Positions 4,301 through 18,264 of a stretch of DNA of 23,874 nucleotides are shown here, piece after piece. The notes beneath the pieces are model-generated. The model was not told where the DNA came from and did not search any database. It saw only the letters and a list, made by a program, of their open reading frames with translations. The stretch is from an uncultured Sphingobacteriaceae bacterium (GTDB taxonomy: Bacteria; Bacteroidota; Bacteroidia; Sphingobacteriales; Sphingobacteriaceae): assembly GCA_946887045.1 (NCBI GenBank), contig CAMPKC010000066.1, forward strand, positions 1-23,874, read 5' to 3'. Position numbers and translations under genes: made by a program. Position 1 is the stretch's first letter. Each line of letters starts with the position of its first letter.

Positions 4301-4314
4301 ACCTCTTATCAAAC

Positions 4315-4384
4315 AAAAAAAGGGTTGAACACCGTGGCCCAACCCTACATCTACCTATGAAAAACAAGCCCTTTGGGAGGGCAC
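4315..4384 (-). ncRNA. Family A sRNA-like unit, copy A1
   Basis: Read on the minus strand, it has a 5' hairpin with arms GCCC/GGGC (4368-4382). An unpaired stretch follows, complementary to CTACCTATGAAAAAC on the plus strand. Then comes a terminator hairpin GGGTTG/CAACCC (4322-4345) and seven Ts (4321-4315). Relative to copies A2 and A3, both stems differ in sequence but remain paired, which supports a structured RNA. The start near 4384 is inferred from the sigma-54-like element just upstream. Predicted length is about 70 nt. The role as an antisense regulator is inference. Confidence 0.6.
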
Positions 4385-4393
4385 ATATTGTAT

Positions 4394-4410
4394 TACAATC
4401 TAAATGCCAG
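4394..4410 (-). promoter_or_regulatory. Sigma-54-like element of A1, with upstream palindrome
   Basis: The minus strand reads CTGGCAT-N4-ATTGTA, i.e. GG-N10-GT, close to the sigma-54 pattern TGGCAC-N5-TTGC except that the -12 GC is GT. A palindrome CACAC-C-GTGTG lies at 4474-4484, about 70 bp upstream of the -24 box. That is a typical distance for an enhancer-binding-protein site. The three family A copies share this layout. No TAnnTTTG box is visible in the family. Confidence 0.4.
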
Positions 4411-4785
4411 TGCTTTAACTACTCCTACAGCTACTTTTTACCAAAGAGTAAGCTCATATTGAGAATTCACAGCCACACCGTGTGACTTAATTTCCCCTTC
4501 AACCTTTTAAAATTTTGCAGGCATAATAGCTATGTTTTTTGGAGTGGCAATGGAACTAATTGTCCGTATCCACGCAGACTTTACTCAATCGAGCTTTAGT
4601 ACGCTATATTTATTTCGTTTATGCTTGTGGGGATCGTTCTTGGAAAAGTGGCTGGAATCAAGTCGGCAAGGCGATTTAGATCACAGGTAACCTAAGAAAG
4701 GCATTAGGACTGCCCCCCTCTTTTTCAACTGTTATATCTAACAACTTAAAAAAGTGGTTTGAAAATCAGCGGATTAAGCTTAAAT
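4411..4785. other. Gene-poor stretch with decayed ORFs between A1 and B1
   Basis: It contains the conserved upstream part of repeat A1 (to about 4500). A 52-codon plus-strand ORF follows (4532-4690, starting MFFGVAMELIVRIHADF), then an open C-terminal-like tail ending SNNLKKWFENQRIKLK before TAA near 4787. None is recognised. They look like fragments of lost genes. Confidence 0.35.
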
Positions 4786-4845
4786 AAAAAAAGGTCTTCA
4801 AACGGGGAGAGTGAAGACCTTTTAACTAACCAATTATAAACCTGA
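4786..4845 (-). ncRNA. Family B sRNA-like unit, copy B1
   Basis: The minus-strand unit is about 60 nt. A 5' single-stranded stretch is complementary to AACTAACCAATTATAAACCT (plus strand 4824-4843). A terminator hairpin AGGTCTTCA/TGAAGACCT (4792-4820) follows, with C-rich loop CTCCCCGTT on the RNA strand, then a T-run (plus-strand A-run 4786-4792). Copy B2 at 17.8 kb keeps the 20-nt stretch and most of the loop exactly, but has one base pair fewer in the stem, a coordinated change on both arms. The promoter is at 4848-4877. The seed looks like an anti-leader for mRNAs with AACCAATTATAAACC before the start codon; that is inference. Confidence 0.68.
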
Positions 4846-4847
4846 CA

Positions 4848-4899
4848 CAAAAGTAGAAATTTTGCCATAAACACAAAGACTTTTAACAAAAATTAACAA
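4848..4899 (-). promoter_or_regulatory. Bacteroidota promoter of B1 with upstream TTAACAA direct repeat
   Basis: The minus strand has TTTG (4877-4874), an 18-bp spacer and TACTTTTG (4855-4848), matching TTTG/TAnnTTTG. Five bp upstream of TTTG lie two TTAACAA direct repeats (plus strand 4883-4889 and 4893-4899), 10 bp apart. B2 keeps the spacer length, the 5-bp gap and the repeat. Confidence 0.7.
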
Positions 4900-4935
4900 T
4901 TCGATAATAGTGAGATGGATTTGATGTAAAAAGCA

Positions 4936-4962
4936 AAACCCTTGCCTGGAAGACAAGGGTTT
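4936..4962 (-). terminator. Conserved hairpin upstream of B1, terminator-like
   Basis: Arms AAACCCTTG (4936-4944) and CAAGGGTTT (4954-4962) surround a 9-nt loop. On the minus strand the hairpin is followed by GCTTTTT. A diverged counterpart stands at the same place upstream of B2. It may end another RNA that starts near 5010, where the conserved block (plus-strand TATATTTGGATAGTT) lies. I see no clear promoter for that RNA. Confidence 0.45.
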
Positions 4963-5040
4963 GTATGAGGTATATTTGGATAGTTTGGTCTCTAAATGTA
5001 CATCCTTTTTTGATATTTGCAAAAAAATATAAAAAAAAGA

Positions 5041-5324
5041 TATCTGTATTACGAATTTCATAACAGATTCATACCGAATCCGGGATGCTAATGTTTACTT
5101 TATAATGTAGGATGTGAAGTGTTTTTTTCAAGGAGAAAGGTATTCAAGTTAACAGGAGCGTATTCACTGCTATTGTGGATGTGGCTTTGGAAATGCTTGT
5201 TCATGGCTTCTTTAAAAGGTTGCATCTGAGGTTCGACTTATAAGAGACCTTTCTACAGGAAGAGCGGAAATGGGTTGAAAGCTCTGGGCTGTTAACGACA
5301 GTTCTTAAGAAAGTGTTATTCAAT
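5041..5324. other. No recognisable gene
   Basis: Spacer between B1 and A2. A short open plus-strand stretch (about 5147-5241, peptide VNRSVFTAIVDVALEMLVHG) looks protein-like but has no start and no recognised family. The minus-strand ORF at 5201-5452 is an artefact of reading through the sRNA-like unit A2. Confidence 0.4.
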
Positions 5325-5394
5325 AAAAAAGGGTCGAATAGTTTAAATTCGACCCTACATCTACCTATGAAAAACAAGCCCGATGGGCGGGCGT
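5325..5394 (-). ncRNA. Family A sRNA-like unit, copy A2
   Basis: Minus-strand unit: 5' hairpin GCCCG/CGGGC (5378-5392), then a stretch complementary to CTACCTATGAAAAACAAG. The terminator hairpin has 9-bp arms GGGTCGAAT/ATTCGACCC (5331-5355) and is followed by a T-run (plus-strand A-run 5325-5330). Compared with A1, GGGTTG/CAACCC has become GGGTCG/CGACCC and the 5' stem has gained a pair. These are paired changes. The sigma-54-like element is at 5404-5420. Confidence 0.62.
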
Positions 5395-5517
5395 ATATTG
5401 TATTACAATCTGGATGCCAGTGCTTTAACAGGCCCGATAGTGGCTTTTTCATCGAAGAATAACCTCATATTGAGAATTCTCAGCCACATCGTGTGACTAA
5501 ATTTCCACTTTAAGCTT
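5331..5517. repeat. 187-bp exact duplication, left copy (contains A2)
   Basis: This segment appears base-for-base identical to 5758-5944. The flanks and the 240 bp between the copies are unrelated, so the duplicated unit is the sRNA-like gene plus its control region, not a larger block. Confidence 0.85.
5404..5420 (-). promoter_or_regulatory. Sigma-54-like element of A2
   Basis: The minus strand shows TGGCAT (plus 5414-5419), a 5-bp spacer and TTGTA (plus 5404-5408), giving GG-N10-GT. A near-palindrome CACAT-C-GTGTG lies at about 5484-5494 and a second palindrome TGAGAATTCTCA at about 5471-5482. A3 has the same layout 427 bp further on. Confidence 0.4.
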
Positions 5518-5750
5518 TTAAGAATTCATGAGGAGTCTCTGGATTATTACTTGATGAACTTTCATAAAAAAGGGCTGTTAGCCAGAGTTTTGCTTTTAAC
5601 TCGCCGAAGACTCAAATCTATAATTCTTGTTTTTCTTAATAAGGTTGAGGTATAATTAAGGGATCAATGGTCAGGATAAAAAATGTGGAGAACAGGAACA
5701 CGAGAGTAGGGAAATGGTCCCATTTGTGACTTCTTAAAAAACCTTATCAC

Positions 5751-5821
5751 AAAAAAAGGGTCGAATAGTTTAAATTCGACCCTACATCTACCTATGAAAA
5801 ACAAGCCCGATGGGCGGGCGT
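5751..5821 (-). ncRNA. Family A sRNA-like unit, copy A3
   Basis: Identical in sequence to A2 over RNA and control region. The terminator hairpin is at 5758-5782 with seven As on the plus strand at 5751-5757, the 5' hairpin at 5805-5819 and the sigma-54-like element at 5831-5847. The start near 5821 is inferred. The minus-strand ORF at 5664-5879 (MKKPLSGLLKHW...) is an artefact: its ATG is not conserved in A1, while the RNA structure is. Confidence 0.62.
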
Positions 5822-5944
5822 ATATTGTATTACAATCTGGATGCCAGTGCTTTAACAGGCCCGATAGTGGCTTTTTCATCGAAGAATAACCTCATATTGA
5901 GAATTCTCAGCCACATCGTGTGACTAAATTTCCACTTTAAGCTT
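5758..5944. repeat. 187-bp exact duplication, right copy (contains A3)
   Basis: Matches 5331-5517. Its right end (CTTTAAGCTT) overlaps the last codons and stop of the small gene at 5937-6266, so the arriving repeat appears to have supplied that gene's current stop codon. Confidence 0.85.
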
Positions 5945-6266
5945 GTGGCAGGTTGGTGTCTTTTCCATTCAGGTCGATTTTTCTAAACTTGAAAAACTTT
6001 CCTGCATGTTCTTCAATAAAATCCTGCATATCACAAACAGAAACATTTATTGACCTGTCGTAATGTTCCGTTAATAACAAAACTTCCTTGCAAAATTTAG
6101 AGAATTCATCCAGTGTCATACTTTCAATGACGTGTAGAAATTCGATCTTATTATAAAGTCCCCCGGGTAAAGCGCAATCTTGGATTATATCAGCTGCTTG
6201 TTTCATAAAATTATAATAATCTGAATAGCGTTTTAGTTTGCAGAAATCGTATTTGATTATGTCCAA
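5937..6266 (-). CDS. Small hypothetical protein, possibly C-terminally altered
   Basis: 109 residues, no signal peptide or membrane segment. The sequence is acidic and helix-rich (KRYSDYYNFMKQAADIIQDC ... FSKFCKEVLLLTEHYDRS ... FIEEHAGKFFKFRKI). I do not recognise the family. No in-frame ATG precedes it: an in-frame TAA lies just upstream, so the start is TTG at 6266 or the internal ATG at residue 21. The stop TAA lies inside the 187-bp repeat copy 5758-5944, so the last few residues come from the repeat and the original C-terminus may have been longer. It could be a decaying fragment, given the neighbouring pseudogenes. Confidence 0.45.
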   Translation of the reverse strand: MDIIKYDFCKLKRYSDYYNFMKQAADIIQDCALPGGLYNKIEFLHVIESMTLDEFSKFCKEVLLLTEHYDRSINVSVCDMQDFIEEHAGKFFKFRKIDLNGKDTNLPQA

Positions 6267-17640: not shown

Positions 17641-17833
17641 TTGATTTATTGAAAATATTTTAAAATGAAGTGATTGAAAACAGGATCATTGCGAACTGTG
17701 CCTTCTTGTACGCTCGTTGGTGAATAACATCAATCTTTGCGAACTACGATGTGTAGGAGATCTTTTGGGTTTGATTGTGATCGGGTATTTTCAGAATTGT
17801 TAGCAGGGGGATACAGTGGGAATTCTTTTAAAC

Positions 17834-17892
17834 AAAAAAAGTCTTCAAACGGGGAGGATGAAGACTTTTTAACTAACCAATTATAAACCTGA
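17834..17892 (-). ncRNA. Family B sRNA-like unit, copy B2
   Basis: Same build as B1, 13 kb away. A 5' stretch is exactly complementary to AACTAACCAATTATAAACCT (plus strand 17871-17890). The terminator hairpin is AGTCTTCA/TGAAGACT (17840-17866) with a C-rich loop sharing CTCCCCGTT with B1, followed by a run of Ts (plus-strand A-run 17834-17840). The stem lacks one G-C pair present in B1. The minus-strand ORF at 17730-17936 is an artefact across this unit. Confidence 0.68.
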
Positions 17893-17894
17893 GA

Positions 17895-17946
17895 CAAAAA
17901 TAGTAATAGTATTATAATTTCAAAAGAATTTAACAAAAATTAACAA
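17895..17946 (-). promoter_or_regulatory. Promoter of B2 with TTAACAA direct repeat
   Basis: The minus strand has TTTG (17924-17921), an 18-bp spacer and TATTTTTG (17902-17895). TTAACAA repeats lie at 17930-17936 and 17940-17946, 5 bp beyond TTTG, exactly as at B1. The spacer bases themselves differ between copies, so the conserved parts stand out. Confidence 0.7.
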
Positions 17947-17982
17947 TTTCGTAATTAATCCTCGGAATCGTTGTAAAAGAAA

Positions 17983-18008
17983 AACCCTCACCTGATGAGG
18001 CAAAGGTT
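17983..18008 (-). terminator. Conserved hairpin upstream of B2
   Basis: Nested stems AACC/GGTT (17983-17986, 18005-18008) and CTCA/TGAG (17987-17990, 17996-17999) with a bulge. TTTCTTTT follows on the minus strand. It is the counterpart of the hairpin at 4936-4962. Beyond it, plus-strand TATATTTGGATAGTT (18017-18031) and CTTTTTT-GATATTT are shared with B1. The rest of 18040-18264 is the AT-rich leader of the GH95 gene, where I see no clear promoter. Confidence 0.4.
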
Positions 18009-18264
18009 CGTATGTTTATATTTGGATAGTTCAGTCCCTAAAACTACTGCTTTTTTCGATATTTTCAAATATTTATTGTTAGGGCTGTCTAAATTGCAAT
18101 ATTTTCAATTTTTCCTTTATCAGTGGCGGCTTTGTTATTTTGTTAAGCCTTAACAATATTTTATTAAAGAGTAAGTTGACTAATCTTCATCTTGCTATCA
18201 GCGGGAGTGTTTAAACTAAATAACTATTATTGCAATAATTCTATTAATCTTTTAAAAACCTGTT

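Follow-up and report, generated by a model that had tools for sequence, protein, structure and literature searches.

The window analysed here, the whole 23,874-nt stretch of a contig from an uncultured Sphingobacteriaceae bacterium, carries three minus-strand units of about 200 nt (A1, approximately 4313 to 4515; A2, 5320 to 5517; A3, 5747 to 5944) that are very probably copies of a trans-acting, base-pairing sRNA of most sampled Sphingobacteriaceae, one that would silence mRNAs at their start codons. This appears to be a real sRNA family, and neither Rfam nor the literature searched was found to contain it. Rfam returned no family at gathering score for the window copies or for copies in 8 + 2 further loci (L255 of the second set overlaps L089 of the first), and a copy in L212 overlapped RF00519 (suhB/mmgR) below threshold, at 23.7 bits against a gathering score of 41. 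The RNA was likewise found undescribed in Rfam 15 at gathering score and in a literature search that left aside bioRxiv preprints and most subscription papers. The features of the three units are as follows, where A1 and A3 belonged to the training copies of the covariance model (R1) and their scores are to be read accordingly.

4314..4391, minus strand: sRNA copy A1 (5' hairpin, seed, intrinsic terminator); covariance model R1 78.2 bits, E 1.1e-16; fold
4346..4365, minus strand: A1 seed, RNA GUUUUUCAUAGGUAGAUGUA, antisense to UACAUCUACCUAUGAAAAAC; at least 120 exact genome matches; unpaired in the fold
4394..4409, minus strand: A1 sigma-54-type -24/-12 promoter TGGCATTTAGATTGTA; core at fixed distance in other copies
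4471..4487, no strand assigned: A1 candidate activator site (UAS), inverted repeat AGCCACACCGTGTGACT, proposed from the sequence
5323..5401, minus strand: sRNA copy A2; covariance model R1 79.9 bits, E 4e-17; fold
5356..5375, minus strand: A2 seed; sequence match
5404..5419, minus strand: A2 sigma-54-type promoter TGGCATCCAGATTGTA; core at fixed distance in other copies
5482..5498, no strand assigned: A2 candidate UAS, inverted repeat AGCCACATCGTGTGACT, proposed from the sequence
5750..5828, minus strand: sRNA copy A3; covariance model R1 78.5 bits, E 9.5e-17
5783..5802, minus strand: A3 seed; sequence match
5831..5846, minus strand: A3 sigma-54-type promoter TGGCATCCAGATTGTA; core at fixed distance in other copies
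5909..5925, no strand assigned: A3 candidate UAS, inverted repeat AGCCACATCGTGTGACT, proposed from the sequence
5937..6266, minus strand: 109-aa ORF, its stop codon at the border of unit A3 on the upstream side; no match in the Pfam scan

Comparison of the units revealed 99% identity between A2 and A3 across 198 nt, with unrelated flanks and gene-poor surroundings, and 84% identity between A1 and the other two across 98 nt. The duplicated unit is longer than a sequence-only reading of this DNA had drawn it, such that it also takes in the sigma-54-type promoter and about 100 nt upstream of that promoter. The window has three exact matches to the pattern CTACCTATGAAAAAC and four matches when up to three mismatches are allowed, the latter count being reached in 1 of 100 shuffles. 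Each copy encodes an RNA of about 72 nt consisting of a 5' hairpin, the unpaired GUUUUUCAUAGGUAGAUGUA and a terminator, and folding of the minus strand, which covered A1 and A2, gave both a 5' hairpin of 5 bp, an unpaired linker of 21 nt and a terminator stem of 10 bp with a U-run (fold z of -1.07 for A1, with 26 of 200 shuffles folding equally well, and -3.42 for A2). Searches of plasmid records gave zero matches. Elsewhere in the window, positions 1 to 960 hold five direct repeats (300 nt, 165-nt spacing) that are 77-86% identical to the first.

Evaluating the structure across related genomes, we assembled a test set of 69 regions from 16 genomes, mostly picked for many copies, together with the window, which yielded 89 model hits (three in the window); four of the 89 lack the core, and the hit in L270 corresponds to a target site instead. 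Covariation among these hits, a result favoured because the alignment was fitted to the tested structure, revealed changes on both sides in all 14 modelled pairs, with 299 double-changed cells against 86 +/- 12 after shuffling, a covariation score of 0.714 against at most 0.191 with slid partners, and 91.9% of cells paired across the structure against 68.9% when shuffled. All five pairs of the 5' hairpin were double-changed and 83.4% of its cells paired, while 96.6% of cells paired in the terminator helix. The sequence-only reading had proposed three sRNA-like units with structure under selection, pointing to a GGGUUG/CAACCC to GGGUCG/CGACCC exchange in the terminator and to a 5' stem of changing length. 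The copies and their folds are present, the terminator exchange is real and compensatory, and the covariation bears out the selection, but the stem measures 5 bp in both A1 and A2 and it is instead the loop-closing pair that changes, from U-A to G-C.

The family is widespread in Sphingobacteriaceae, and its strong matches, as sampled, are confined to them. The 20-mer TACATCTACCTATGAAAAAC has exact matches in at least 120 genome stretches, and the genus-naming titles among the matches listed all belong to Sphingobacteriaceae; one of the exact matches (L074) falls outside the sRNA copies. A covariance model built from 61 diverse copies, two of them from the window, matched 235 of 251 sampled Sphingobacteriaceae genomes at 1-12 copies per genome. 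Across the phylum, 12 of 296 sampled genomes matched, eight of them strongly and already among the genomes of the family search, the remaining four weakly (E 0.001-0.01), and no strong match outside Sphingobacteriaceae appeared in that sample. Some loci hold arrays of 3-4 copies (L212, L249, L251, L253 and L255). The constant part, as read from the copies, is UCAUAGGUAGAUGU(A/G), and the U-run before it varies.

We then linked the seed to candidate targets. The seed had been read as antisense to a start-codon region, and its complement CATCTACCTATGAA is indeed also found at real start codons in related genomes. A pattern designed to avoid most sRNA copies, DNNNNTCTACCTATGAA, was present in 128 of 251 genomes, part of which are still sRNA copies, against 85 for a permuted pattern (105 matches). 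Neighbouring bases that formed no part of the search extend the complement among the matches listed (A in 118/150, C in 87/150), and once 13 TTACA contexts, among them several sRNA copies, are set aside, the bases are CA in 67/137 of the matches listed. Thirty DNNNNTCTACCTATGAA loci gave 31 sites, five of them inside sRNA copies, and in 10 of the 26 non-sRNA sites the ATG opens a reading frame of at least 100 aa, versus 2 of 30 permuted controls (p 0.005); keeping the five sRNA-copy sites, the count is 10/31 (p 0.013). Sixty extra stretches hold 61 sites, 36 of which open a reading frame of 45 aa or more, but they constitute no test because they were mostly picked for the CATC extension.

The same candidate target families recur, as grouped partly by eye: a protein of about 50 aa (15 loci), a GH76 lipoprotein (4), an ECF sigma factor (3) and GSDH (2), of which one ~50-aa protein, one GH76 and two ECF sigma members were Pfam-scanned. 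SDR candidates were found at L322 and L367, and among the candidates seen once are a lipocalin, a histidine methyltransferase and glycosyltransferases. The one ~50-aa member scanned had no Pfam match. A fresh sampling of this protein that ignored its leader found it in 18 of 151 genomes, often as tandem pairs, with 7 of 28 ORFs matching at least 8 nt of the site adjoining the ATG and two more carrying CATCTACCC; in tandem pairs (L423-L451), one partner can bear the seed complement at its start. The L074 hydrolase, which has a perfect 20-nt site, was considered as a conserved target and rejected: among the 10 orthologue starts recognised in 30 loci, only one, the original, has the full site.

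The seed-shuffling energy evidence for targets is weak. Across 789 start windows, 5-19 of 100 shuffles preserving CAU and the U-run reached the real counts of strong duplexes at 8 of 9 cut-offs. At the strictest cut-off none of 100 did, but all three windows lie in L074 and L128, both found through the seed; without them nothing stands out. An earlier version with plain shuffles had looked strong, but its shuffles lost CAU and it was superseded by the CAU-preserving one. The window RNA carries two of the marks of a trans-acting sRNA: its own promoter motif and an intrinsic terminator bounding an RNA of 50-200 nt, and a seed that is conserved, left unpaired and able to match translation start regions, a complementarity for which the energy test alone is weak. 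In the mechanism we propose, the stable 5' hairpin and the terminator would keep the seed unpaired and open, the core UCAUAGGUAGAUGU would pair with mRNAs bearing (A)CAUCUACCUAUGA over the start codon, and this pairing would block translation initiation. The RNA would have to be expressed and to pair directly, with repression as the predicted sign of its regulation, and the proposed start-codon silencing is well supported by sequence.

The constancy of the core beside an adjoining U-run that varies would also suit a protein-binding site, such that the RNA soaks up an RNA-binding protein as a sponge and its complementarity to start codons arises incidentally. There is a possible precedent in RbpB, a global RNA-binding protein that binds the FopS RNAs of Bacteroides (PMC11697453). 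We consider this reading unlikely, as start codons are enriched for the complement, the match runs on past the bases searched, and related genes carry it repeatedly; the two roles are mutually compatible.

The promoter motifs differ between copies. Among 174 distinct pooled copies, 92 have a sigma-A-like promoter motif, 46 a sigma-54 -24/-12 motif, 11 an ECF-like motif and 25 none that we recognised, such that 149 of 174 carry a recognised motif at a fixed distance; these counts are not census proportions because the genomes were chosen. By motif, A1, A2 and A3 of the window belong without exception to the sigma-54 class. Within 126 exact-seed matches (including one non-sRNA, L074), 33 have GGCA[CT]N5TTG with the GG lying 41-47 nt before the seed, and this motif occurs once elsewhere, and TAnnTTTG lies 26-31 nt upstream of the seed 85 times, with its other occurrences at 33 nt (one) and scattered over 37-224 nt (21). 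The 85 core-bearing model hits divide into 26 with a sigma-54 box, 18 with a sigma-A box, 11 with a GTAAC-type/CGTA box, which we take to resemble ECF promoters, and 30 with none; in a control zone 60-180 nt upstream, the sigma-54, sigma-A and ECF patterns occurred 0, 5 and 2 times. RpoN was present in 20/20 genomes tested, and the count of PF00158 was unspecific, 14/14 control genomes also matching. Neither the promoters, of the sigma-54 class or any other, nor the family-wide distribution figure in the sequence-only reading.

A half-site, TTCTACA/TGTAGAA, lies upstream of 18 of 46 sigma-54 copies versus 6 of 92 sigma-A copies, a hint of a link between this motif, chosen after looking at the data, and sigma-54 copies. 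Three copies without a recognised promoter (L219, L234 and L243) have, by eye, their apparent start just past the end of an ORF and are possibly 3'-UTR-derived. The identical seed would stand behind different promoters, with sigma-A-like versions often near ubiX, sigma-54 versions often in arrays, and ECF-like versions besides, so that different signals would carry one silencing message.

The proximity to ubiX raises the reading that the RNA is a cis-acting leader or attenuator whose terminator controls the downstream gene. Nine of 10 sigma-A loci inspected on the same strand have an ORF of at least 100 aa 46-82 nt past the core (the L018 locus ended without an ORF), and six of the seven ORFs scanned match PF02441 (UbiX family), L033 matching nothing. 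We regard this reading as quite unlikely, however, in that the RNA is repeated 3-4 times in the arrays named above, the sigma-54 copies L015 and L016 adjoin Ferritin_2 ORFs instead, and the complement recurs at unrelated start codons. That the units are a functionless mobile or decaying MITE-like repeat, as the near-identity of A2 and A3 between unrelated flanks in a gene-poor stretch could suggest, is very improbable given the covarying helices, which already contradict it, the fixed promoter spacing and the presence in 235/251 genomes. Hardest of all to credit is a plus-strand MKNK... peptide as the product, named beforehand as the alternative that would overturn the sRNA: that reading does contain an ATG, but the peptides read from it in sRNA copies run from 5 to 60 aa and diverge after the first residues, and the promoters and the terminator U-run fit the minus strand.

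Some sites may be decoys for the putative trans-acting sRNA. A seed complement followed immediately by a terminator was found at 4/61 + 5/31 sites versus 0/30 controls (pooled 9/92, p 0.07). In L305, L324, L396 and L401 an intrinsic terminator directly follows the seed complement, and these are possible sponge sites; by eye, the site in L305, L396 and L401 lies just past an ORF-like end, ...KQAA. Seven further loci (L371, L378, L381, L388, L397, L406 and L411) hold a conserved RNA-like stretch, TGGGTTTAATCAATAGTTTAAATTAATTAGGGGAAAG plus a terminator-like end, with the seed complement on its 5' side; six of the seven have a downstream ORF with a similar N-terminus, the one scanned being an acyl-CoA dehydrogenase, and in the four loci scanned against Rfam nothing matched the stretch at gathering score. 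The terminator-linked sites and the acyl-CoA dehydrogenase leader stretch could be decoys. It is possible, though we hold it tentatively, that sigma-A, sigma-54 and ECF pathways send out, across the whole family, one unvarying antisense 'word' directed at start codons and buffered by decoys, forming a global start-codon silencing network in a phylum not known to have Hfq; if so, the ECF sigma factor among the candidate targets could close a loop.

A second repeat, which we assume to be the family B of the sequence-only reading, lies at 4780-5030 and 17827-18076 as a conserved RNA-like module with minus-strand GGTTTATAATTGGTTAG followed by a terminator. Its 17-nt element CTAACCAATTATAAACC is present in 181 of 251 family genomes at up to 19 per genome, a reversed control giving 2 matches in all. 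Families A and B had been envisaged as layered silencing of adjacent parts of one translation start region, which we reject because no ATG-started ORF of at least 100 aa begins within 60 nt downstream of family B at 47 places in 30 loci. The sRNA unit, its selected structure and its start-codon seed thus survive from that interpretation, and the layered system does not. By eye, 37 of the 47 places (L465-L489) have a T-arm-like tRNA end before the module, and L481 (100-560, minus strand) has much of a tRNA-like sequence there. We do not claim family B as a tRNA trailer because no tRNA is called at these loci by ARAGORN (9 loci) or by Rfam at gathering score (5 loci).

The logic of the sRNA family recalls known systems. 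Qrr1-5 of Vibrio act redundantly: their promoters are of the sigma-54 kind and served by an NtrC-type activator, their pairing region does not vary, and they rely on Hfq and LuxO; sigma-A or ECF versions of Qrr with the same seed are not known to us. The window RNA shares redundancy with Qrr and, by motif only, the sigma-54 promoter (3/3 window copies, 46/174 copies), but it differs in phylum and sequence, and the Rfam scans, with no family at gathering score, give no sign of homology to Qrr. The enterobacterial sRNAs MicA, RybB and MicL depend on sigma-E, an ECF factor, and shut down numerous mRNAs by acting close to the start codon, each from one promoter class as far as we know; we liken the window RNA to them by its proposed mode of action.

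Also close in design is FopS of Bacteroides thetaiotaomicron, a set of multi-copy paralogous sRNAs with a conserved single-stranded seed and a terminator; there, FopS and GibS pair near start codons and repress, FopS numbers 12-15 copies per genome in Bacteroidaceae with its seed in an unpaired 5' stretch and sigma-ABfr promoters, and the family has been deposited in Rfam (PMC11697453). Both RNAs are multi-copy in Bacteroidota, with one conserved unpaired seed, a terminator and start-codon complementarity, whereas ours has a covarying 5' hairpin ahead of the seed in place of a hairpin-free 5' seed before the terminator, 1-12 copies, a Sphingobacteriaceae distribution and three promoter classes. 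A FopS assignment by Rfam finds no family at gathering score in the window copies and 10 loci. The window RNA would be akin to FopS and Qrr in logic and, by the tests made, a member of neither.

To our knowledge, post-transcriptional control in Bacteroidota has been little studied beyond Bacteroides. The unchanging seed, the three types of promoter and the recurrent target candidates named above make the putative regulation, including the activators and physiological signals presumed to act on it, directly testable in culturable Pedobacter, Mucilaginibacter and Sphingobacterium of soil and water, where the family may offer a natural experiment on how a single RNA message gets coupled to different signals.
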